Assembly (NCBI RefSeq): GCF_900091555.1
Contig: NZ_FMCX01000002.1
Span: 186,001-250,000, forward strand
DNA: 64,000 nt
DNA from: Micromonospora mirobrigensis
GTDB lineage: Bacteria > Actinomycetota > Actinomycetes > Mycobacteriales > Micromonosporaceae
Reading direction: 5' to 3'
Part shown: one piece after another, positions 23,439 to 40,262 of the stretch
Layout: each line of letters begins with the position of its first letter
Numbering within the stretch: position 1 is the first letter of the stretch
Translations under genes and position numbers: made by a program
Notes under the pieces: generated by a model
Seen by the model: the letters and a program-made list of their open reading frames with translations, nothing else
What the model was told of the DNA's origin: nothing
Databases searched by the model: none

Positions 23439-24767
23439 TCAGTCGGGTTCCGGAAGTTCCGGCGCCGGCAGGGCGGTCGACGAGGCGGCGAGCCGGGTGG
23501 CCTGTCGGCGGCGGCGGGCCAGCAGGACCGCTCCCCCGGCGACCACCAGGGCGCCCACCGCGGCGGCCGGTGTGCTGCCGGGCCACCCGCCGCCACCGCC
23601 GGCGGCCGTCCCGTTCAGCCCCGCGGCCCCGGCGAGCGCCGACGCCGCCACCGTGACCGACGGGCTCGGCGAGGTCGCCTCGCCGGGGCGTACCAGCCGG
23701 CCGACCGCCGCGTCGCGGGGCAGCGCGAACCCCCAGTCGAGCAGGGACGCGCCCTGCTGCCAGCCACGCTGGGTGGGGATCTCCGCGCCGAGCAGGGTCA
23801 CCACCAACCGCCGGCCGCCCCGCTCGGCCGCCCCGACGTAGGTGTGCCGGGCGACGTCGGTGAAGCCGGTCTTGCCGCCCAGCGCCCCCGGGTAGTGGTC
23901 GAGCAGCTGGTTGTCGTTCTGAATCTGGAACGGCTTCTCGTGCAGGGCCGGCTGGCCGGGGATCTCCGCCACCCGGGTCGCGGTGTACCGGCGGAACGCC
24001 GGATCGGCGAAGCAGGCCCGGGCGATCAACGCCAGGTCGTACGCGCTGGTGAACTGGCCCGGGCCGTCCAGGCCGGACGGGGTGACCGCGTGGGTCTGGA
24101 GCGCGCCGAGCCGGCTGGCCTCCTCGTTCATCGCCCGCACCCCGCCGGCCAGCCCGTCGGGCCCCCCGCCGAGCCGGGCCAGGGCGTTGGCGGCCTCGTT
24201 GCCGGACTTCAGCAGCAGCCCCAGCCAGATCGTCTCGATCCGGTACCGGCCGCCCTCGGCCAGGCCCACCGCCGAGCTGCCGGGCTCGATGGCCAGGTCC
24301 CCGGCGGTCAGGGTGACCTCCCGGTTCGGGTCCAGCCGGGGCAGCATCGTGGCGGTGAGCAGCAGCTTCTGCACGCTGGCCGGGCTCGCGTACTCATGTG
24401 GGCCGCAACCGCCGAGCACCGCGCCGCTGTCCAGGTCGGCGACCACCCACGAGGTCGCGGTGACCGGGGGTGGCGCGGGCGCCGACGGGGGCGTCACCAG
24501 ACCGGCGGTGGCCAGCGCCGCGCCACCCACGGCCCGGGCGGCCGGGTCGGGCGCGGGAGGCGGCTGCGGCGGCGGGCTGGCCGGGGCGGGGACGTTCGGG
24601 CACGGCGGCCCGGCGGCCGGTCGACCGGCCCTGGTCGGCGTCCCGGCCCGCGCCTGGGCCAGGCCGGCGGTCGGCGTGCCCGCCGGGCCCTGGGCCAGGG
24701 CGGGCGCCGGCACGGTCGACGCCGGGGCGAGGAGGGCGGCGGCCAGCGCCGCGAGCAGGCCTCTCAT
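23439..24767 (-). CDS. Serine-type D-Ala-D-Ala carboxypeptidase (PBP5/DacB type), copy 1
   Basis: A 442-aa exported penicillin-binding protein. It has a signal peptide (about 1-25), a long Ala/Pro/Gly linker (25-100) and an S11 domain with SVQK (SxxK active Ser), SGN and KTGFT motifs in order. After the catalytic core comes a low-complexity stretch, a C-terminal helix (AAAVGALVVAGGAVLLA) and a basic tail, so it is anchored outside the membrane at its C terminus. It trims the terminal D-Ala from peptidoglycan stems. A close paralogue lies at 45297-46577. The start codon is 8 nt after TAGCCT with no ribosome site, consistent with a leaderless mRNA. Confidence 0.93.
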   Translation of the reverse strand: MRGLLAALAAALLAPASTVPAPALAQGPAGTPTAGLAQARAGTPTRAGRPAAGPPCPNVPAPASPPPQPPPAPDPAARAVGGAALATAGLVTPPSAPAPPPVTATSWVVADLDSGAVLGGCGPHEYASPASVQKLLLTATMLPRLDPNREVTLTAGDLAIEPGSSAVGLAEGGRYRIETIWLGLLLKSGNEAANALARLGGGPDGLAGGVRAMNEEASRLGALQTHAVTPSGLDGPGQFTSAYDLALIARACFADPAFRRYTATRVAEIPGQPALHEKPFQIQNDNQLLDHYPGALGGKTGFTDVARHTYVGAAERGGRRLVVTLLGAEIPTQRGWQQGASLLDWGFALPRDAAVGRLVRPGEATSPSPSVTVAASALAGAAGLNGTAAGGGGGWPGSTPAAAVGALVVAGGAVLLARRRRQATRLAASSTALPAPELPEPD

Positions 24768-24836: not shown

Positions 24837-26840
24837 TCAGCGGGTAGCCTGCCGCCCACCCGGAGGCGGGCTGCCGGGACGCCGGGCACGCCACCGTCGC
24901 CCGCCCGCGCCGAGCACCACACCGGTCGCGACGGCCGCCAGCAGCAGCGCCGCCCGGTCCAGCACCGGTCGTAGCGGGGCCGCCGAGACGCGTACCGGCC
25001 CGGCGGTGGACGCGCCGGCCGGGACGGTCCACGGGTGGGTGTCGGTGACCGGGGGCAGGCCGTCGCGGAGCACGGTCACCCCCACCCGCCACCGGCCGGG
25101 GCTGTGGATGTCGTCCACGGTCACCACCCAACCGTCGCCGGTGCGGGTGACCGGGTGCACCGCCCGTTCCCCGTTCGGGCCGGTGAGCAGCAGCGACACA
25201 CCGGTCACCGGGCCGGGGGCCGGGCGGCGGGTGTCGTCGACGCCGACGCTGACGATATTGCGTCCCGGCCGGTTCGGTCGCAGGGCCACGGTGTCGACCA
25301 GGTCGGACATCTGGCCGGTGACCTGCGGCTCGGCGCCCGCGACGGCGGTCTGCGGGAACGCCGGCCCCCGGCCCGGACCGGCGGCGGCGAGCGCCCCGGC
25401 CAGGCCGAGCGCGACGGCGAGCAGACCGGCCTCGACGCGCAGCCCGCGGCGGGGCAGGTCGGTGCGGCGCAGCCGCCGGGCGGTCCGCGCGCCGAGCAGC
25501 ACGGCACCGACGGCCACGGCGACCTTGGCCATGAGCAGCAGCCCGTACGGGGAGCCGACCAGGGCGTCCACCGAGGCCACCTGGGGGCCGGTGAGCAGCA
25601 GGCCGGTGACGACCAGCAGGGCGAGGCAGGCCACGGCGAGGGTGGCGAAGGCGCGCAGCAGGGCGCGTACCTGCGGGCCACGGTCGGGGGCGTGCCGCAG
25701 CCGGGGCAGCAGGGCCAGGGCGGCGGCCAGCACACTGCCCGCCCAGCCGCCGGCGGCCAGCACGTGCACCCCGCCGACCAGGGCGGTCCGCCCGGGGCCG
25801 CCCATCGGGTGACCGAGCAGTGCGGTGCCGCTGGCCGCGGCGACGGCCCCGATCGCGCCGACGACCACGGTCGCGGGCATCCGGCCGCCGGTCGTCGGCG
25901 CGCCCGGTGCACGAGCGAGCCCGACAGCTGGGAGGATGCCCGGCGGGTCGTCCACGGCGGTCGGGAGGACTCCCGGAGCGTCGACCGTGGAAGGCGGGAG
26001 GAAGCCCACCGGGTCGTCGGGAGACAGGACGACGGGCGACGGGCCGTCGGCGGGTCGGCGGGCGGCGAGCAGCGCCACCACGACCAGCGCGGCCGTGCCG
26101 GCCTCGCGGAGCAGCCAACGACCGCCGGTGAGCTGCGCGGCCAGCAGCCGCCACCGGTCGCCCGCCCCGGCCAGCTGGACGGCCAGCAGCAGGGGCCCGG
26201 CGAGCAGGGCGACGATGCCCGCGTACCCGGCGACGATGAGCAACCGGCGGCGCAGCGCGACGGCCCCCGGGTCGGCGCGGCGGCGGCCGGCGGCGTGCAG
26301 CAGCGCGAGCGCGGCGCCGCCGATCAGCACCGACAGGCCGAGCAGGCCGACGGCGCGGGCGACGGTCTCCCGGGGGCCGGGGCCGACCGGACCGGCCACG
26401 CCGACGGCGGTGACCTGCCGGCCGACGCCGAAGACCAGGGTGCCCCGGGTGGTGTGCAGGTCGTCGGAGGAGAGCGTCCGCCAGGAGACGTGGTAGGTGT
26501 TCGGCGGCAGCGCGGGCAGCCCGGCGACCAGGGTGACCGGTTCCTCGCTGTCGGCGTCGTCGGCGGCGGGCGCGCCGTCGGCGTCGCGCAGCGCCAGCCC
26601 GGTCACCGCCCAGTGCCGGCCGTCCCCGTCGACCAGGCCGACCCGGGCGGCCGCGAGTTCCACGTGCTCGGTGAAGGCCAGGGTCAGCGTCTCCGGCGCC
26701 CGGTCCAGGACCGCGCCGTCGGCCGGCGCGCTGCTGGCCAGGTAGGCGTGGGCCTGCGCCGGCGCGGGCCCGGCCAGCACCGTCAGGGCGGCGACGCCGA
26801 CGGCGAGGAGCAGCCGGCCGATCCGGGGCACGCCGGTCAC
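24837..26840 (-). CDS. CopC-CopD fusion copper-handling membrane protein
   Basis: A 667-aa exported membrane protein. The start is the GTG at 26840, sharing GTGA with the upstream gene; the much longer open frame to 27584 overlaps other genes and is rejected. Signal peptide about 1-28, then a CopC beta-sandwich whose mature N terminus AHAYLASSAPADGA carries the copper-ligand His, with the second His in SSDDLHTTRGTLVFGV. A CopD domain of about eight helices follows (about 145-520, with LLGHPMGGPGR and GGVHVLAAGGWAG), then an extracellular YtkA-like module (VVTVDDIHSPGRWRV) and a final helix. It is an YcnJ-like copper importer or delivery protein, and could supply the adjacent oxidases. Confidence 0.9.
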   Translation of the reverse strand: MTGVPRIGRLLLAVGVAALTVLAGPAPAQAHAYLASSAPADGAVLDRAPETLTLAFTEHVELAAARVGLVDGDGRHWAVTGLALRDADGAPAADDADSEEPVTLVAGLPALPPNTYHVSWRTLSSDDLHTTRGTLVFGVGRQVTAVGVAGPVGPGPRETVARAVGLLGLSVLIGGAALALLHAAGRRRADPGAVALRRRLLIVAGYAGIVALLAGPLLLAVQLAGAGDRWRLLAAQLTGGRWLLREAGTAALVVVALLAARRPADGPSPVVLSPDDPVGFLPPSTVDAPGVLPTAVDDPPGILPAVGLARAPGAPTTGGRMPATVVVGAIGAVAAASGTALLGHPMGGPGRTALVGGVHVLAAGGWAGSVLAAALALLPRLRHAPDRGPQVRALLRAFATLAVACLALLVVTGLLLTGPQVASVDALVGSPYGLLLMAKVAVAVGAVLLGARTARRLRRTDLPRRGLRVEAGLLAVALGLAGALAAAGPGRGPAFPQTAVAGAEPQVTGQMSDLVDTVALRPNRPGRNIVSVGVDDTRRPAPGPVTGVSLLLTGPNGERAVHPVTRTGDGWVVTVDDIHSPGRWRVGVTVLRDGLPPVTDTHPWTVPAGASTAGPVRVSAAPLRPVLDRAALLLAAVATGVVLGAGGRRWRARRPGSPPPGGRQATR

Positions 26841-27304
26841 CGCACCGGCACGTGGGCCAGGCGGCGCTGCCCCGACGTGATCTCGATGGTGTCGCCGCGC
26901 CGCACCGCGCCGCCGTTGTTCAGGTAGAGCAGGTAGTAGCTCTGGCCGGGGCGCAGCTCGTGGCCCTGCTTCATCAGCGCCGCCCGCCAGGCAAGCTTGC
27001 CGGAGCGCTCGTTGCGCAGCCGGGGCGGATGCTTCGTGTCGTTCTGGAAGGCGGACGCCTTCTGGGTGTCCAGCACCAGGTAGCGCAGCTCCACCAGGCC
27101 GCCGTCGCCCACCACGGCCGCCTGGGTGAAGCGGACGCCCAGGGCGGCCTCCAACTGCCCGTCGTGCGGGACCGCGTAACCCGGTCGGGCGGCGGCGTAC
27201 CCGCCGAAGCGGACGATCGAGACCGCGACCAGCGCCAGCACGAGCAGCGGGAGCACCAGCCGGCCAGGGCGGGGACGGGGGATGCGGAACGGGATCGCGG
27301 CCAT
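26837..27304 (-). CDS. Small membrane-anchored extracytoplasmic protein of the copper locus
   Basis: A 155-aa protein: short basic N terminus, one signal-anchor helix (LVLPLLVLALVAVSIVRFGG), then an exported domain of about 110 residues rich in beta strands (RYLVLDTQKASAFQND, SYYLLYLNNGGAVRRGD). The ATG at 27304 follows GAGGAGG; an in-frame upstream ATG at 27355 is less likely. Its stop overlaps the CopC-CopD start, so the two are coupled. I do not recognise the family. The position suggests an accessory role in copper delivery, but no Cys/Met/His copper motif is obvious. Confidence 0.75.
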   Translation of the reverse strand: MAAIPFRIPRPRPGRLVLPLLVLALVAVSIVRFGGYAAARPGYAVPHDGQLEAALGVRFTQAAVVGDGGLVELRYLVLDTQKASAFQNDTKHPPRLRNERSGKLAWRAALMKQGHELRPGQSYYLLYLNNGGAVRRGDTIEITSGQRRLAHVPVR

Positions 27305-27361: not shown

Positions 27362-30319
27362 TCAGGGTGCGGTGTAGCGGGTGGAGGCGTAGTTGTCGAA
27401 GCTGAGCGAGCCGGTGGTGGCGGCGGTGCGGGCGACCAGGCCCAGGGCCGCCGCCTCCACCGGGTAGCCGCTGGTGTCGCCGGTCAGGGTGCCGACCGTG
27501 ACGGCGCCGACCTTGAGGGTGGCCGACCCCGCGGTGGCCGAGACCCAGTCCAACCGGACCGTGCCGCCGTTCGCGGCAACCCAACCGGTGTACGTCCAGC
27601 CGGCCGGCCGCAGCAGACCCAGCCGGAACTGGTTGGTGGTGCCGTTACGCCGGTACTGGACGACGGCCACCGCCGCGCCCGACGCGTTGGTCAACTGCTC
27701 CACGGTCACCACGGCGGTCTGCGGGTTGAAGGTGCCGAGGACGACGTCCGCCCTGGTGTGGACGGTGCGCTCCGCGGCGGGGGTGTCGTCGACGACGTAC
27801 CCGACGGTGCCGGCGACCAGTTGGCCGGTGCCGGACGACACCGTGCCGACCACTCGGGACCAGGCGCCGGTGCCGGTGGTGAACCCGTCGGCGAAGATGG
27901 CGTTCGGCGGCTCGACGGCGACGGTGACCGCACCGGCCGTACCCCAGTTGCCCAGCGCGTCGCGGGCGCGGACCCGCAGGGTGCGGTTGCCGGCGCCGAA
28001 CCCGTTGAGGGCGACCGTGGCGGTGACGGCCGTGCCGGCGACCGTCATCGGGTGGCCGTGGCCGACGCCGGGGTCGGCGCCCTCGTACCACTCGGCGGCG
28101 GTGACCGCGGAGGCCGCGTCGGTGGCGGTGGCGCTCAGGGTGAGCGTCGCCGCCCCGGCGGTCGGGTTCGGGGTGGCGGTGACCGCGGTGACCACCGGTC
28201 CGGTGCGGTCCAGGGTGAAGGTGACCGGGGCCAGCGGGCCCCAGTTGCCGGCGCTGTCGCGGGCGTGCACCAGCACCTGGTGGGCGCCGTCGGTCAGCCC
28301 GGTCAGCTCGGTCAGCGGCAGCAGCCCGTAGGTGTTCTCGGTGGCTCCGTTGAACGACCCGTCGAGGGCGACGAAGGTGAACCCGGTGCCGTCGGCCCCG
28401 GCCACGTCGAGGAAGCCCTCCGCCGCGCTGACCACCGAGTGCACCCCACCGGCGGTGGGGTCGGTGAACGCGGCGTTGACCCGCAGGTCGGTCGGGTCGG
28501 ACGCGGAGCCCTTGCGCCCGTCGGTGGCGGCCGGGTCGACCGCGCCGGAGAGCAGCGTCGGCACGGTCCGGTCGACGACCAGGTCGGCGGTGGCGTACGG
28601 GCCCCACAGGCCGAACGAGTCGCGGGTGTGCACCAGCACGGTGTGTCGTCCCTCGGCCAGGGCGGCGGCCACCACGGCCGGGATGCTGCCCGACTCGCCG
28701 GTGGCGGCGGCGCCCGGGTTGGCCACAATGAGCGGGGTGCCGGTGCCGTTGTCGCCGGTGGTGTCCACGAAGTACTCGGCGGCGGTGACGGTGCCGCCGA
28801 GGCCGGAGTCGTCGGCGGAGGCGGCGATCGTGATGTCCCCGGTTCCAGGTGTGGGGGTCGGGGTGAGCGTCACCCCGGTGGTGACCGCCCCGGTGACGGC
28901 CAGGTTGAGGGTGGTGCTGCCGACCACGCCCCAGTTGCCGGCGGCGTCGTGGCCGCGTACCCAGATGGTGTGCCGGCCCTGGGTGAGGGTGGTGAGCAGG
29001 TCGGCGGGGAGGGTGGCGGTGGCTCCGGTGACGGTGGGGCCGGCGCCGAAGGCGGCGCCGGTGAACGCCAGGCCGGTCCCCTCGGCGATCCGCAGGTCGT
29101 CGAGGACCGCCTCGGCCCGGTCCACCACCGAGTTGCCGTTGCGGGCGTCGGTGAAGTCGGCGGTGACCGTCACCGTGTCCCGTACGCTCGCCGGGTTCGG
29201 GGCGGCCCGCACGTTGCCGGCGGTCGGCCCGACGTGGTCGCCGCCGTCGGCGGGCGGGTTGGTGTCGAGGAAGGTCAGCATGCCGCCGAAGGCCTGCTGC
29301 GGGCTGACCCCGGTGACGGTGGTGCCGTAGCGCTGGCCGGCGTTGTTGAGCTGACCGCCGGACTCGGCGAGGGCGAAGCGCCGCCCGTCCGGGCCGGCCG
29401 GGACGGCGACCACGGCGTCGACCGCCTGCCCGGGTTGCAGCGGCACGGTCACCGCGGCCTCCGGGTAGGCGGCCGGCCGGGCGTCCTGCCCGACGATCGC
29501 CTGGTCGAGGCCGAACAGGGTCATCGGGTGCGGCTGCACCCCGGCGGCGACGTAGCGCAGCAGCACCCGCCGGCCGACGTCGGTGGCGACCACGTCGGTC
29601 TCCGGGAACGCCTTGCCGTTGATCAGCCGGTACTTCGGCGCGTAGGCGCGCAGGTCGTAGCTGAGCGGGGCGGCGTTGAACGCCGGGTCCAGCTCGGTGA
29701 GCACCAGCACCGCCTCGTCGTCGTAGACGCTGGCGGCGTCCCCGTACGCGCTGGGCCGCCCGCCGACCGCGGGGGCCCGGACCACCAGCGCCCCGACCAG
29801 GCCCATGGCGACCTGCCGGGCGCCGAGGGCGGTGTGGCCCGCCTCGTAGAGGTAGGTGCCGGGGCGGGTCGCGGTGAAGGTGTAGCCGCGGGTGCCGCCG
29901 GGTGGTGCGCCGGCGCGGTCCGGGGCGAGCCCGGTGACCGCCGGGAAGGCCAGCGACAAGGCGTCGGCGAGTCCGTTGTGCACGGTGACGGTCACCCGCT
30001 GGCCCTGGTCGACCACGAGCACCGGGCCGGGCACCGTGGCTGGTGCGGTGTCGGTGCCGGCGAACCCCCAGATCGGCACCGGAGCCGACGCGCCGGGCAG
30101 CACCACCGTGCCGGGCTTCGCCCACACGTCGCAGGTGGCCGTGCCGTCGCCGAGCCGGCAGCCGGTCTGCGGCAGCACCCCCTGCGGCGGGGCGGGGTCA
30201 CCGGCCAGGGTCGCCGCCCGCCCGGTGGGGGCCGTCGCCGGTGGGGCCGGGGCCGGACCGAACGCCAGCACCGCCGCCGCGACCCCGGCGAGCAGCCGAC
30301 GCGTACGGGTCGATCTCAT
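27362..30319 (-). CDS. Degenerate two-domain multicopper-oxidase homologue with Ig-like repeats
   Basis: A 985-aa secreted protein. The ATG at 30319 follows GGGAGGG; the signal peptide covers about 1-35. Two cupredoxin domains (about 60-390) align with those of the next two genes but lack nearly all ligands: the HWHG position reads SLAFPAVTG, the HCH position reads YLYEAGHTALG, and only HPMTLFG is left in domain 2. Four Ig-like repeats (about 400-830) each end in a motif such as RGHDAAGNWG, TRDSFGLWG or RARDALGNWG. A C-terminal module of about 165 residues resembles a lectin-like jelly roll. It is probably a structural or substrate-binding partner rather than an oxidase. It lies 20 bp after the second cupredoxin gene. 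Confidence 0.82.
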   Translation of the reverse strand: MRSTRTRRLLAGVAAAVLAFGPAPAPPATAPTGRAATLAGDPAPPQGVLPQTGCRLGDGTATCDVWAKPGTVVLPGASAPVPIWGFAGTDTAPATVPGPVLVVDQGQRVTVTVHNGLADALSLAFPAVTGLAPDRAGAPPGGTRGYTFTATRPGTYLYEAGHTALGARQVAMGLVGALVVRAPAVGGRPSAYGDAASVYDDEAVLVLTELDPAFNAAPLSYDLRAYAPKYRLINGKAFPETDVVATDVGRRVLLRYVAAGVQPHPMTLFGLDQAIVGQDARPAAYPEAAVTVPLQPGQAVDAVVAVPAGPDGRRFALAESGGQLNNAGQRYGTTVTGVSPQQAFGGMLTFLDTNPPADGGDHVGPTAGNVRAAPNPASVRDTVTVTADFTDARNGNSVVDRAEAVLDDLRIAEGTGLAFTGAAFGAGPTVTGATATLPADLLTTLTQGRHTIWVRGHDAAGNWGVVGSTTLNLAVTGAVTTGVTLTPTPTPGTGDITIAASADDSGLGGTVTAAEYFVDTTGDNGTGTPLIVANPGAAATGESGSIPAVVAAALAEGRHTVLVHTRDSFGLWGPYATADLVVDRTVPTLLSGAVDPAATDGRKGSASDPTDLRVNAAFTDPTAGGVHSVVSAAEGFLDVAGADGTGFTFVALDGSFNGATENTYGLLPLTELTGLTDGAHQVLVHARDSAGNWGPLAPVTFTLDRTGPVVTAVTATPNPTAGAATLTLSATATDAASAVTAAEWYEGADPGVGHGHPMTVAGTAVTATVALNGFGAGNRTLRVRARDALGNWGTAGAVTVAVEPPNAIFADGFTTGTGAWSRVVGTVSSGTGQLVAGTVGYVVDDTPAAERTVHTRADVVLGTFNPQTAVVTVEQLTNASGAAVAVVQYRRNGTTNQFRLGLLRPAGWTYTGWVAANGGTVRLDWVSATAGSATLKVGAVTVGTLTGDTSGYPVEAAALGLVARTAATTGSLSFDNYASTRYTAP

Positions 30320-30339
30320 CGTCGCCCTCCCCTGCCTGG

Positions 30340-31641
30340 TCACGCCGGGCACCCGGCGGGCGGGTCGATGCGGATCAGCGTCATCATCCCGCCGAAGCTC
30401 GCCCCGTAGTTGGTGGCCTGTTCCAGCGCGTGGCTGTGCGCCACGTGGTAGTACTCGCCGCACTGGTTGTTCTGCACCACGCCGGGCGGCAGCTCGCCGG
30501 GCGTCCCGCCGAGGTACGGGTTCTCCGCGAACCAGGTCTCCGGGCCGGGGCCGACGATCTGGTCCTGCAACGAGGGCAGCGGCACCGGGATCGGATTGCC
30601 CTGCGGGTCCCAGTGCTCGGCGTCCTTCCAGATCATCAGGGTGTCGACGGTCTGGCCCGGGGAGACGTCGATGAGGAAGTTGGAGAAGGACAGGTCCTGC
30701 CCCGCGGGGCCCTGCGCGGGCCGGCCGTCCCGGGCGATCAGCTGCTCGTCACTGCCGTGCGGGTGGAACGGGTAGGCCACCGATCCGGCGTTGAGATATC
30801 GGATCAGCGCCGGCTTCGGGTTGCCCACCGGGTCGTACGGCCGGATGTGGATCAACGCCCCGTACGGCTGGGCGGGCAGCCACTCGGCGTGGTTGGGGGC
30901 GATGGTGTCCGGCATGCTGCGCCCGTTGATGGTGAAGTAGCGGGCCTTGTACCTGGTGAAGTCGTACGCCCGCCTACGCTCGACGGCCAGGTGCAGGTCG
31001 GGGTCGATCTCACCGAGCAGGTAGAGGTACTCGTGGTCGGGGTCGAACGCCGAGTCGGCCCGGTCGTTCTCCCGGTCCGGGTGGCCGGCCGGGCGCACCA
31101 CGAGGGCGCCGTAGAGGCCCATCTGCACCTGCTTCTGCACGTCGGTTCCGGACTGGTAGAGGTAGGTGCCCGGCGGGCCCGCGGTGAAGGTGTAGGTGAC
31201 GGCGCCGCTGTTCGCCGCGGCCGTGGTGGTCAGCGAGGTGAGGGTGCCGGCGGCGTCGGTCTCCGGCTGGGCCGGCCGCCCGTCGGCGAGCACCTGCGCC
31301 TGGCCGGGGAAGGTGATCGAGGTGGGCTCCGGCAGGCTGTTGTGCAGCACGACGGTCACCTTCGTGCCGGAGGTGACGCAGAGCGTCGGGCCGGGCAGCT
31401 GGAACTCCCCGCCGCCGGAGGCGTAGCTCCACATGTAGATCGTGTTGCCGTCGGGCATCGCCGCGTACCCCCCGGTGGCGGTGAGGTCGAAGGCGTTGTC
31501 GGCGGCGGTCCGGCACTCCAGGCCGGCGGGCGGGCTGGCGGCCACCCGGTCCGGCCCGGGGACGACGAGCACGGCGACGACGGCCGCCGCGAGCGGCACC
31601 GCGCTCAGCCGCTTCCACCGGCCGAGGTCTGCAGGAAGCAT
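30340..31641 (-). CDS. Two-domain cupredoxin protein carrying half of a trinuclear copper site
   Basis: A 433-aa secreted protein. N-terminal signal or anchor helix at about 10-30. Domain 1 (about 50-185) has lost copper ligands (TSITFPGQ where HWHG would be, YLYQSGTDVQ where HCH would be). Domain 2 (about 205-430) retains FHPHGSD (H293, H295) and HVAHSHALEQ (H402, H404), matching two of the four HxH motifs of a T2/T3 trinuclear site, but Cys is absent, so it has no type 1 copper of its own. The other two motifs are in the preceding gene product. The start at 31641 has GGGG five nt upstream; ATG at 31653 is an alternative. It is separated from the previous gene by about 13 nt. Confidence 0.82.
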   Translation of the reverse strand: MLPADLGRWKRLSAVPLAAAVVAVLVVPGPDRVAASPPAGLECRTAADNAFDLTATGGYAAMPDGNTIYMWSYASGGGEFQLPGPTLCVTSGTKVTVVLHNSLPEPTSITFPGQAQVLADGRPAQPETDAAGTLTSLTTTAAANSGAVTYTFTAGPPGTYLYQSGTDVQKQVQMGLYGALVVRPAGHPDRENDRADSAFDPDHEYLYLLGEIDPDLHLAVERRRAYDFTRYKARYFTINGRSMPDTIAPNHAEWLPAQPYGALIHIRPYDPVGNPKPALIRYLNAGSVAYPFHPHGSDEQLIARDGRPAQGPAGQDLSFSNFLIDVSPGQTVDTLMIWKDAEHWDPQGNPIPVPLPSLQDQIVGPGPETWFAENPYLGGTPGELPPGVVQNNQCGEYYHVAHSHALEQATNYGASFGGMMTLIRIDPPAGCPA

Positions 31642-31654
31642 CGGTACCCCCATC

Positions 31655-32914
31655 TCAGGCGTTCGCCCGGGTCTGCGCCGGGAGCGTGCCGGGCGGCGAG
31701 ATCCGGATCTCGGTGAGCTGGCCGCCACGCCCGCCGCCGGCGTTGGCCAGCGACGTCAGGTCGCGGTCGTAGAGCAGGTACGTGCCGGGTTCCGGTGCGG
31801 TGAGGATGACGTCGCGGCTCTCCCCCGGTCCGATCTGCACGGTGCTGGTGACCTGGTACTCGGCGCTGCCGTCGCGGCCGCGCAGCAACGCGGCGTCCTT
31901 GCCGACCACCAGCAGGTCGACACCGTCCACGGTGAGGGTGTGGTTTCGGTAGCCGAGGTTGGCCAGCCGCAGCAGCACCCGCTCCCCCGCGTTGGCGGTG
32001 ATCAGCGACGAGATCGGCTGGTAGCGCAGCCGCCCGGCGGCCTGGCTGAGCGGATCGCCGTTGGGGGCCAGGGTGTCCGGGTAGCAGCGCCCGTTGAAGG
32101 CGAAGAAGGACGGCTTGTAGTCGGTCCAGTCGGTGGTCTGGATGTGCGCGTCCCGGTAGTGCGCCTCGGCCCACACCTCGGTGAGCATCAGCGCGAACTC
32201 CCGGTCGTAGCGGGTGGAGCCGTCGCCGTCGTTGTAGACGTAGCGCCCGGGGGGCACGTCGGCGGTGCCGGAGTTCTGGGCCGGCCGGACGTAGACGATC
32301 CCGGTCATCCCCATCTGGACGTGTTCGACGTCCTCGAAGTGGCAGTGGTACATGTACGTTCCGGCGTCGTGCGGCCGGTAGAAGTAGGTGAACTCGCGGC
32401 CGATCGGCACCGAGATGGACAGCTCGGGCACGCCGTCGAAGAGCGGGATGGCGTTGCGGAAGCCGTGCCAGTGCACGGTGTGCCCGTCGACGAGGTCGGG
32501 GCGTTGTGACAGTCCGAGATTGGTCAGCTTGATCTTGATGTCGGTCTCCTGGTCGAAGCCGAGCAGCGGGGCAGTGATCTGCGCCTTTCCCCGCTGGCCG
32601 GTCACCTCCGTCGCCGACAGGCCGGTGACGTCGCGGAAGCCGAAGACGTACAGGTCGGAGCCGGCCGGGGCGAGCGGGTCCGGCCAGAACGGGCTGATCG
32701 GTGGGGAGCCCTGCGGCATGGAGACCCAGCCGTCGGTGGCGGCCAGGTGCAGGCTGGCCGTCGGGTTCGGCACCGCCCGGGGCAGCAGGGCCGCCGGCCG
32801 GCGCGGCTGGGCGTCGGAGCCGCTCTCCGGCAGGACCGCCCAGGTGCCCAGACCGGTGAGGCCGGCCAGCAGGGCACGCCGGCTGATGCTCCCCTGCCGT
32901 ACGGGATCGGTCAC
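31655..32914 (-). CDS. Two-domain multicopper oxidase with type 1 site and half of the trinuclear site
   Basis: A 419-aa exported protein. The GTG at 32914 follows GAGGAGGAG. A twin-arginine signal (ISRRALLAGL, residues 10-19) suggests folded, possibly metal-loaded export. Domain 1 (about 55-215) carries HTVHWHG (H148, H150) and YHCHFEDVEHVQMGM (H190, C191, H192, H198, M203), supplying type 1 ligands and half of a trinuclear cluster. Domain 2 (about 235-410) keeps the cupredoxin fold pattern but only one His (RNHTLTV). It therefore needs a partner with two more HxH motifs, which the next gene provides. It is first in the three-gene cupredoxin set, preceded by two hairpins after the giant beta-helix gene. 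Confidence 0.87.
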   Translation of the reverse strand: MTDPVRQGSISRRALLAGLTGLGTWAVLPESGSDAQPRRPAALLPRAVPNPTASLHLAATDGWVSMPQGSPPISPFWPDPLAPAGSDLYVFGFRDVTGLSATEVTGQRGKAQITAPLLGFDQETDIKIKLTNLGLSQRPDLVDGHTVHWHGFRNAIPLFDGVPELSISVPIGREFTYFYRPHDAGTYMYHCHFEDVEHVQMGMTGIVYVRPAQNSGTADVPPGRYVYNDGDGSTRYDREFALMLTEVWAEAHYRDAHIQTTDWTDYKPSFFAFNGRCYPDTLAPNGDPLSQAAGRLRYQPISSLITANAGERVLLRLANLGYRNHTLTVDGVDLLVVGKDAALLRGRDGSAEYQVTSTVQIGPGESRDVILTAPEPGTYLLYDRDLTSLANAGGGRGGQLTEIRISPPGTLPAQTRANA

Positions 32915-38443: not shown

Positions 38444-39112
38444 GTGGGACGGGTACTGGTTATCGAGGACGACGAGCGGATCGGACGGTTGGTCACCCGG
38501 GCGCTGGAGGGCGGTGGCCTGCTGACCGAGCGGGCGTCCTCCGGCAGCGCCGGGCTCGACGCGGCGCTGCGCCGCGACTTCGACCTGGTGGTGCTGGACC
38601 TGATGCTGCCCGGCCTGGACGGGCGCCAGGTGCTGGACCAGTTGCGCGAGCGGCGACCGGAGCAGCCGGTGCTGGTCCTGTCCGCCGTGCCGGAGATCAG
38701 CACCCGGGTCGCGGTGCTGGAGGCGGGCGCCGCCGACTTTCTCGGCAAGCCGTTCGCCGTGGCCGAGCTGCTGGCCCGGGTCCGGGCCCGGATGCGCCCC
38801 GCGCCGGGCGGCGACGGCGGCCGGTGGCTGCGGATCGGCCCGGTGCACCTGGACCTGCACCGGCGGCGGGTGACGGTCGACGGCGTCCGGGTGGAGCTGC
38901 CACTACGGGAGTTCCTACTGTTGCAGCACCTGATGACCCGGGCCGGCCGGCCGTGCAGCCGCGACGAGCTGCTGGCCGACGTGTGGGGGCTGCACTTCGA
39001 CCCGGGCAGCAACGTGGTCGACGTGTCGGTGCGCCGGCTGCGCGGCCGGCTCGACCGGGCCGACCGGATCGAGACCGTACGCGGCGTGGGTTATGCGTAC
39101 GCCGCCGACTGA
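38444..39112 (+). CDS. OmpR-family response regulator of the copper-oxidase locus
   Basis: A 222-aa two-component regulator. The receiver domain (1-118) has the acidic pair EDD at 8-10, phosphoacceptor Asp in LVVLDLMLPG and the conserved Lys in FLGKPFAV. The winged-helix output domain (about 125-222) shows LPLREFLLLQHLM and VSVRRLRGRLDRADRIETVR. The start is GTG at 38444 (MGRVLVIEDDE). It overlaps its kinase gene by 20 nt. Divergence from the giant beta-helix gene, with an 11-bp tandem repeat between, suggests it controls that locus. Confidence 0.93.
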   Translation: MGRVLVIEDDERIGRLVTRALEGGGLLTERASSGSAGLDAALRRDFDLVVLDLMLPGLDGRQVLDQLRERRPEQPVLVLSAVPEISTRVAVLEAGAADFLGKPFAVAELLARVRARMRPAPGGDGGRWLRIGPVHLDLHRRRVTVDGVRVELPLREFLLLQHLMTRAGRPCSRDELLADVWGLHFDPGSNVVDVSVRRLRGRLDRADRIETVRGVGYAYAAD

Positions 39113-40262
39113 CCGCCTGCTGGCCTGGATCTGGATCGTCTTCGCCACCGTCAACGTGGCGCTGATGTGGTTCCTGCCGGGCGAGGAGACCGTCCCGTTC
39201 CACCTGGTCTGGATCAGCCTCGCGCTGGTCTACGGCTTCACCACCTGGCGGTTGTCCCGGATGGTCGCGGCGCTGGCCGCCGTGACCACCACGACCGGGG
39301 TGATCCTGGCCCACCACGCGGCCGTCGGCGAGATCCGCTGGGAGGAGACCGCCGAGGAGCCGCTGATGGCGGTGATCTTCATCGTGATGGCCTGGCACGT
39401 GCACCGCCGGCACCTGCTGCTGCGCCAGATGCGGGTGCTGCGGGAGGCCGAGCGGGACCGCGCGCACCAACGGGAACTGCTGGTCCGGCTCGCGTCACAC
39501 GAGCTGCGGACCCCGCTGACCATCGCCCGCGGCTACACCGAACTGCTGCGCGCCACCCACGACCAGCCGTCGACGGTGGAAGACACCACGGTGGTCCTCG
39601 ACGAGTTGGACAAGGCCACCCGCATCGCGCACCGCCTGGTCACGCTGATGCAGCTGGAGCAGCAGCCCCAGGCCCGGCTGGTCGACCTCGACGCGGAACT
39701 GGCCCGGATCGTCCGCCGCTGGGCGCCGGCCGCCGACCGCGACTGGTCCTGCCGGTCGGCCGTCGGCCGGAGCCGGGTGGACCCTGAGCGGCTGGAGGCG
39801 GCCCTGGACTGCCTGATCGAGAACGCGGTGAAGTTCACCGCGGCCGGCGACCGGATCGCGCTGGTCGGCCGGCGCGACGCCGGCGGCTGGACGGTGGAGG
39901 TGGTCGACTCGGGCGCCGGCATCCCGCCGGAGGTCGTACCCCGGCTCGTCAACGGCCGGCCGGGCCGGCCCACCGCCACCGGCACCGGTCTGGGGCTGGC
40001 CATCGTGCGGGCGGTCGCCGGGGCGCTCGGCGGCCGGGTGGTGGTGGGCGTCGGGCCGGACGGCGGCGCCCGGGTCGGCCTGTGGGTGCCCGAACGCGAG
40101 CCGGCCGGTACGCCCCGGCCGGGACCGGTCCGGCCGCGGTCGCCGGACGGTCCGGCCACCCCGGCAGGACCGGACCGGTCGGCCCGCAGGCCGGCCGGCC
40201 TGCGGCACCCGGTGCGCAGCGTGGCGGACGGTGAGCGGGGCGGCACGCGGCAGGTGTCGTGA
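39093..40262 (+). CDS. Sensor histidine kinase of the copper-oxidase locus
   Basis: A 389-aa membrane kinase. Four hydrophobic stretches lie in residues 1-110 (IWIVFATVNVALMWF; LVWISLALVYGF; AALAAVTTTTGVILA; AVIFIVMAWHV) with only a short external part, so sensing is probably within or near the membrane. The H-box is LASHELRTPLTIARG, the N-box LDCLIENAVKF, G1 DSGAGIP and G2 GTGLGLAI. The C-terminal 60 residues are Pro/Arg-rich and likely disordered. The ATG at 39093 overlaps the regulator gene. The copper link rests on context: HH in LAHHAAVG and HVHRRH are possible but unproven ligands. Confidence 0.92.
   Translation: MRTPPTDRLLAWIWIVFATVNVALMWFLPGEETVPFHLVWISLALVYGFTTWRLSRMVAALAAVTTTTGVILAHHAAVGEIRWEETAEEPLMAVIFIVMAWHVHRRHLLLRQMRVLREAERDRAHQRELLVRLASHELRTPLTIARGYTELLRATHDQPSTVEDTTVVLDELDKATRIAHRLVTLMQLEQQPQARLVDLDAELARIVRRWAPAADRDWSCRSAVGRSRVDPERLEAALDCLIENAVKFTAAGDRIALVGRRDAGGWTVEVVDSGAGIPPEVVPRLVNGRPGRPTATGTGLGLAIVRAVAGALGGRVVVGVGPDGGARVGLWVPEREPAGTPRPGPVRPRSPDGPATPAGPDRSARRPAGLRHPVRSVADGERGGTRQVS

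Follow-up and report, generated by a model that had tools for sequence, protein, structure and literature searches.

A putative multicopper oxidase with copper ligands divided between separately encoded secreted proteins in Micromonospora mirobrigensis and bacteria of other phyla

Can a single catalytic copper site be divided between the products of different genes? This question is raised by three tightly packed minus-strand genes, termed here P1, P2, and P3, in a 64,000-nucleotide stretch of the high-GC Micromonospora mirobrigensis genome (contig NZ_FMCX01000002.1, positions 186,001 to 250,000; hereafter the window, to which coordinates refer unless another locus is named). A multicopper oxidase needs a type 1 copper (T1) site, formed by His, Cys, His, and usually Met, as well as a trinuclear copper site held by eight His residues in four HxH motifs, with four residues from each of two domains. 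To our knowledge, all copper ligands of known multicopper oxidases reside in one polypeptide, acting alone or as identical copies. The original prediction for this locus, made from the sequence, held that three consecutive genes each encode two cupredoxin domains and jointly specify one oxidase centre, and Pfam cupredoxin domains were indeed confirmed in all three products. P1 (31655..32914, minus strand) has a GTG start following GAGGAG and encodes a two-cupredoxin protein with a twin-arginine translocation (TAT) signal; P2 (30340..31641, minus strand) encodes a second two-cupredoxin protein, with a predicted Sec-like signal, both matching Pfam Cu-oxidase. P3 (27362..30319, minus strand), also with a predicted Sec-like signal, encodes a pair of cupredoxin domains without ligands (about 30157-29255) and, after them, immunoglobulin (Ig)-like repeats and a C-terminal module. 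The results described here make it likely that these genes specify one extracellular, hetero-oligomeric four-copper oxidase, attached to a surface scaffold and descended from a homotrimeric two-domain enzyme of type C.

The motif HTVHWHG of P1 (32462..32482, minus strand) supplies the T1 ligand H145 and the trinuclear ligands H148 and H150, and YHCHFEDVEHVQMGM (32306..32350, minus strand) supplies H190, C191, H192, H198, and M203. Domain 1 of P1 therefore contains both the T1 ligands (H145, C191, H198, and M203) and one half of a trinuclear site (H148, H150, H190, and H192). In domain 2 of P2, FHPHG (30754..30768, minus strand) contributes H293 and H295, and HSH (30430..30438, minus strand) contributes H402 and H404; P2 has no Cys and no T1 site. 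The equivalent ligand sites have been lost in P1 domain 2, in P2 domain 1, and in both P3 domains. The residue numbers given originally for P1 and P2 proved to be exact, and the proposed partition, namely, a T1 site and half of a trinuclear site in P1, the other half without Cys in P2, and loss of nearly all ligands in P3, was borne out.

This partition is near-invariant among the 81 to 82 sequences compared, well above what chance would give. H145, H148, H150, C191, H192, and H198 are invariant in 81 of 81 P1 sequences, with one exception each for H190 (Leu in locus L051) and M203 (Leu in locus L077); in P2, H293 and H295 are invariant in 82 of 82 sequences, and H402 and H404 in all 81 that are long enough. 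Mean column identity in diverse alignments is merely 40% for P1 and 38% for P2, indicating that the invariance of the ligands reflects selection rather than closeness of the sequences. In none of the 64 loci, including that of the window, does one chain carry a complete trinuclear ligand set: the domain-2 half-site occurs in no P1, and Cys or a T1 site in no P2, so the view that no single protein is complete holds throughout. At L051, a metagenome bin in which LCH replaces HCH in P1 (around 600-720), the substitution represents either a sequencing error or an inactive copy.

A scan using one genome per species recovered 63 loci besides that of the window, spanning Actinomycetota, Chloroflexota, Dormibacterota, Pseudomonadota, Desulfobacterota, Nitrospirota, and Lentisphaerota. 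As far as the contigs reach, P1, P2, and P3 are separate, adjacent, and constant in order in all 63, as the original prediction would have it; absent members of the set fall at contig ends in L049, L092, and L102. Additional loci with the same order came from Gammaproteobacteria, Desulfobacterota, Nitrospirota, and Chloroflexota. Wherever the contig is long enough, P1 is preceded by P4 and P3 is followed by s172, apart from a few undetected cases (s172 in L086). In the window, P4 (33013..38295, minus strand) encodes a secreted protein of 1760 aa with carboxypeptidase-regulatory-like, SdrD B-like, and right-handed beta-helix domains (Pfam), and s172 (26837..27304, minus strand) encodes a small protein with a single predicted N-terminal membrane segment, for which no Pfam match and no PDB relative of weight were found. 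The conserved unit is thus at least five genes long, P4-P1-P2-P3-s172, and its recurrence in at least six phyla means that it is neither a local oddity nor a broken gene. The length of P3 differs between lineages: in the window, Ig-like repeats make up about 600 residues of the protein, in addition to the C-terminal module, neither of which figured in the original prediction, and in other lineages the entire protein is only about 330 aa.

Within taxa, presence of the set is patchy. It was found in 13 of 151 genomes of a genus sample, on an all-or-none basis, and in 5 of 151 genomes of a family sample, the genome of the window counted; among broader samples, it was present in 5 of 201 Chloroflexota, 11 of 198 Desulfobacterota (the phylum of L106), 12 of 148 Nitrospirota (the phylum of L107; matches under 1e-60 counted), and 7 of 274 Gammaproteobacteria (P2 matches under 1e-80 counted). 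Patchy presence within the genus, combined with conserved gene order, suggests an accessory, horizontally moved unit. The megaplasmid of Cupriavidus metallidurans CH34 carries the set, as does a Paraburkholderia plasmid, and every gene of it is annotated there as "hypothetical protein." Viral contigs gave no match to the set. In one Anaerolineae genome (G355, that of locus L098), the P1-P2 region occurs in three copies, on contigs C34, C7, and C15.

Gene fusions, the usual sign of physical partnership, affect the first as well as the last cupredoxin gene of the set. P4 and P1 share one 2448-aa frame in a Lentisphaerae bin (L104, 2484-9827), and in some proteobacteria P3 and P4 share one frame of about 2700-2800 aa (L142, 3036-11093; L164, 12596-20719; L165, 11457-19688; L186, 7303-15672; and L187), giving the order P1-P2-(P3-P4)-s172. 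Together, the P4-P1 and P3-P4 fusions suggest that both ends of the set are tied to P4 as a scaffold. Single-chain homologues, including MnxG-type proteins, a search for which had been proposed with the original prediction, were looked for and did not emerge: no fused P1-P2 or P1-P2-P3 was found in the 63 loci or in the Actinomycetota, Gammaproteobacteria, Chloroflexota, Desulfobacterota, and Nitrospirota samples, where the long frames that were read proved to be P4-P1 or P3-P4, some having been left unread (e.g., a 960-aa frame in genome G1092, partly read as L152).

What kind of oxidase could be divided in this way? For both P1 and P2 profiles, the best match of solved structure was 3g5w (7.6e-29 for P1 and 2e-15 for P2), the type C blue copper oxidase of Nitrosomonas europaea. 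The P1 profile aligns with the domain-1 ligand motifs of 3g5w, and HPHG and HSH of P2 align with HTHG and HDH of its domain 2, suggesting that P1 and P2 resemble two type C protomers, each keeping a different half of the ligands. In two-domain oxidases, the protomers are trimeric and the trinuclear site is common to two of them, with the T1 site of type C located in the N-terminal domain (PMC13151041). The set shares with 3g5w and with a metagenome laccase of the same type (2zwn) its two-cupredoxin chains and a T1 site in domain 1, the latter found in P1 alone and not in P2 or P3; the layout of the trinuclear site would also be alike, since type C protomers build it from the first domain of one chain and the second domain of another, and the ligands here lie on P1 domain 1 and P2 domain 2. 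However, type C enzymes are homo-oligomers with all ligands, including both trinuclear halves, on each chain, whereas at all 64 loci the ligands are divided between P1 and P2, with P3 ligand-less. An unsplit type C relative (L143, 8815-10518; 568 aa with four HxH motifs and a T1 site) was observed in a chloroflexotal genome that also carries the split set (L074).

Structure models were obtained for natural in-frame read-through chains, in which single stop codons between genes were read as Ser. The AlphaFold2 model of the P1-P2 chain of L062 (796 aa; 44-row alignment with row placement checked) had a predicted template modelling score (pTM) of 0.83 and a mean predicted local distance difference test score (pLDDT) of 83.8. 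The three-domain oxidase 6vow can be superposed on this model in one piece (374 of 409 residues, 2.9 Å, Z 25.8). In three-domain oxidases, the trinuclear site is formed by domains 1 and 3; the superposition spans model residues 1 to 794, from P1 domain 1 to P2 domain 2, indicating that these two domains correspond in position to domains 1 and 3 of 6vow. P1 domain 1 and P2 domain 2 are thereby predicted to be packed as a trinuclear pair, in indirect agreement with the convergence of H148/H150/H190/H192 of P1 and H293/H295/H402/H404 of P2 that was originally put forward for checking. P1 of L062 matches 3g5w with Z 31.1 (282 residues, 2.6 Å), and P3 of L069 keeps the two-cupredoxin fold, with Z 29.0 to 3g5w and about 29 to 2zwn. 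The model of the whole P1-P2-P3 chain of L069 (1143 aa, pTM 0.76) is fitted by a three-domain laccase (target template modelling [TM] score 0.70 over 753 columns) and, in gene order, fits neither ceruloplasmin (TM 0.21) nor Mnx (9bxa), with TM 0.20-0.22 for the two. A ring order of P1-P3-P2 would explain both the laccase fit and the ceruloplasmin misfit. Ceruloplasmin stood at the top of the Foldseek list for both models, yet with TM 0.2-0.3 and 16-34 Å, values that point to matches of single domains and not of the ring.

The likeness to ceruloplasmin that was originally suggested therefore stands for the domain count and not for the scaffold, which is closest to that of type C two-domain oxidases. 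As in ceruloplasmin and MnxG-type oxidases, P1, P2, and P3 total six cupredoxin domains with few ancestral sites kept. Six-domain oxidases, however, are single chains (PMC3600357, PMC13151041), whereas three genes are present at every locus here; in the bacterial six-domain proteins analyzed, domain 2 is reported to hold the T1 site and to form the trinuclear site together with domain 3 (PMC3600357), whereas here the T1 domain is first in its chain and its partner domain is last in another. Comparison with MnxG was by structure (9bxa) only. The Bacillus Mnx complex is multimeric, with a mass of 211 kDa and the composition MnxGE3F3 (PMC5622069), and resembles the proposed assembly as an extracellular multicopper oxidase built from several subunits, some of them accessory; it differs in that MnxG holds the entire copper oxidase, with MnxE and MnxF binding copper in an accessory role, whereas here the oxidase itself is divided.

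A further parallel is provided by two-gene split oxidases encountered in Gammaproteobacteria (L139, 8258-10286; L140, 7778-9891; and L177-L184), in which protein A carries the T1 site and a half-site in domain 1 and domain 2 of protein B provides just the complementary half-site; unlike the three-gene set, they have no P3, P4, or s172 nearby in the loci read. A tree built from 53 sequences resolves P1, P2, and P3 as one clade each (100/97 or better). P2 pairs with P3 as its sister (96/92), the B proteins fall next to these two (95/93), and the A proteins and intact type C enzymes group with P1. In each of the three subtrees, a group of Lentisphaerae, Desulfobulbaceae, and Thermodesulfovibrio stands apart from the other sequences, the pattern that joint inheritance of the genes would give. 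These relationships suggest stepwise duplication with complementary loss, and the A+B systems would fit an intermediate on a path from a homotrimer to A+B and then, by duplication of B, to P2 and P3.

The original interpretation, a hetero-oligomeric oxidase, is thus supported by ligand complementarity, gene order, and fold match. Neither outcome named in advance as refuting it, homologues whose genes never lie together or a complete copper site in each protein, was encountered. The mechanism we favour is as follows. The ancestor would have been a type C homotrimer with both ligand halves in each protomer and three equal sites at the protomer contacts. Its three protomers would then have become distinct paralogous proteins with complementary losses, leaving as the sole site the contact of P1 domain 1 (T1, H148/H150/H190/H192) and P2 domain 2 (H293/H295/H402/H404). 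In the putative 1:1:1 ring, P3 would take the third place without copper and connect to the P4 scaffold, which would keep the ring on the cell surface; s172 may serve as a membrane anchor or assembly factor, and a CopC-CopD fusion protein encoded nearby would provide the copper, presumably four atoms per ring. Electrons from the substrate would enter through the type 1 copper of P1, and a His-Cys-His bridge would carry them on to the shared trinuclear site for the reduction of O2 to water.

Several observations weigh against parts of this picture. Confidence in the P1-P2 model is low near part of the site (residues 108-113 and 732-761), P1 and P2 are tethered in the read-through models, the match to 6vow gives end residues only and does not fix the placing of the middle domain, and the alignment behind the three-chain model of L069 is shallow (17 rows). 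Because it runs from P1 domain 2 to P2 domain 1, however, the tether does not by itself favour the contact that was found. In the tree, the branches are long, and a single clade of P1, P2, and P3 was not rejected (approximately unbiased test, p-AU 0.104), which makes the order of duplications uncertain even though the best tree places P1 with the intact and A-type proteins.

Four other explanations were weighed, of which the most serious concerns P3: P1 and P2 could share the site in a P1P2P2 assembly or a P1-P2 dimer, with P3 acting as an adaptor to P4 rather than as a ring subunit. This would suit a protein that is ligand-less, the most variable, and fused to P4 in several lineages, and the related A+B arrangement in Gammaproteobacteria exists without a third gene beside it. 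P3 nevertheless retains the fold of two cupredoxin domains (Z about 29 to type C enzymes) and groups as sister to P2; it occurs at every locus whose contig extends far enough, and it belongs to a three-chain model with pTM 0.76, so that an adaptor role outside the ring appears rather unlikely. More improbable is that P1 is a mere electron-transfer (type 1) protein and that the His residues of P2 bind another metal or a substrate, with no O2-reducing trinuclear site. Loss of the trinuclear ligand H190 in one of 81 P1 sequences, the metagenome assembly L051, speaks in its favour; against this stand the four trinuclear His residues of P1 and the four complementary ones of P2, invariant over many phyla, together with the residue spacing of 3g5w and the predicted packing at a trinuclear interface, none of which a pure T1 protein needs.

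The remaining two can be given very little credence. A copper nitrite reductase-like enzyme, with T1 in domain 1 and a single type 2 copper where the protomers meet, would belong to the same trimeric fold family, and nitrite reductases were among the structural matches. However, three His residues hold the type 2 copper in nitrite reductases, whereas the eight His residues in four HxH motifs conserved here are an oxidase pattern, and the NCBIfam model TIGR02376 scored 34.6 bits versus a cut-off of 296.3. That the cluster consists of degenerating pseudoenzymes, the losses being decay instead of complementary specialisation, could account for the disappearance of most ancestral sites (two T1 and two trinuclear), but scarcely for leftover ligands that are invariant across many phyla, for a set that travels as a unit, or for intact frames; neither relaxed selection nor frequent frame loss was seen in the relatives.

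For the shared-site assembly of P1, P2, and P3, the most likely function is that of an extracellular O2-dependent oxidase. In yeast Fet3p, acidic residues near T1 guide metal substrates. Acidic residues also flank the T1 ligands of P1 (D140 and E197 in 81 of 81 sequences; D143 and E194 in 79 of 81), and for this reason a metal ion is slightly favoured, by a weak analogy, over phenols or other substrates. Mn was considered as the substrate and not adopted, as nothing stronger than bin names (one relative, bin MnB_9, a lead only) and habitats pointed to it. A more elaborate scenario, which we regard as conceivable and would hold only tentatively, is that the P4 scaffold, the P1-P2-P3 hetero-ring, and the membrane protein s172 make up a surface machine of five components that has spread horizontally and acts on an extracellular metal, e.g., by oxidising Mn(II) or Fe(II), its ring having arisen via homotrimer, A+B, and three-gene stages through duplication and complementary loss.

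What appears to be new is that different gene products would share a single catalytic copper site, in an arrangement kept stable across many phyla. No description of a split multicopper oxidase was found among open-licence papers matched by words, which does not prove absence. If the proposal is true, it adds a new architecture to a textbook enzyme class, with a trinuclear site existing only between two gene products, and it would explain why the proteins, each annotated singly as hypothetical or as an incomplete oxidase, escaped notice. The homotrimeric, two-gene, and three-gene systems form a natural series in which to test how a symmetric enzyme becomes an obligate hetero-complex. Cultured strains, including C. 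metallidurans CH34, carry the set and open it to experiment.

The surroundings of the set in the window are compact. The order of transcription on the minus strand is P4, P1, P2, P3, s172, and CopC-CopD, almost without gaps; the CopC-CopD fusion (24837..26840, minus strand; Pfam CopC and CopD) overlaps the s172 stop in GTGA and, by its domains, is a copper-handling protein. It comes after s172 in many actinobacterial and chloroflexotal loci. Divergent from P4 are a response regulator (38444..39112, plus strand; Pfam) and its partner histidine kinase (39093..40262, plus strand; Pfam), both of which are neighbours of the set in many actinobacterial loci. The downstream neighbour at 23439-24767, which resembles a D-Ala-D-Ala carboxypeptidase in sequence, stands beside the set in the closest relatives only.

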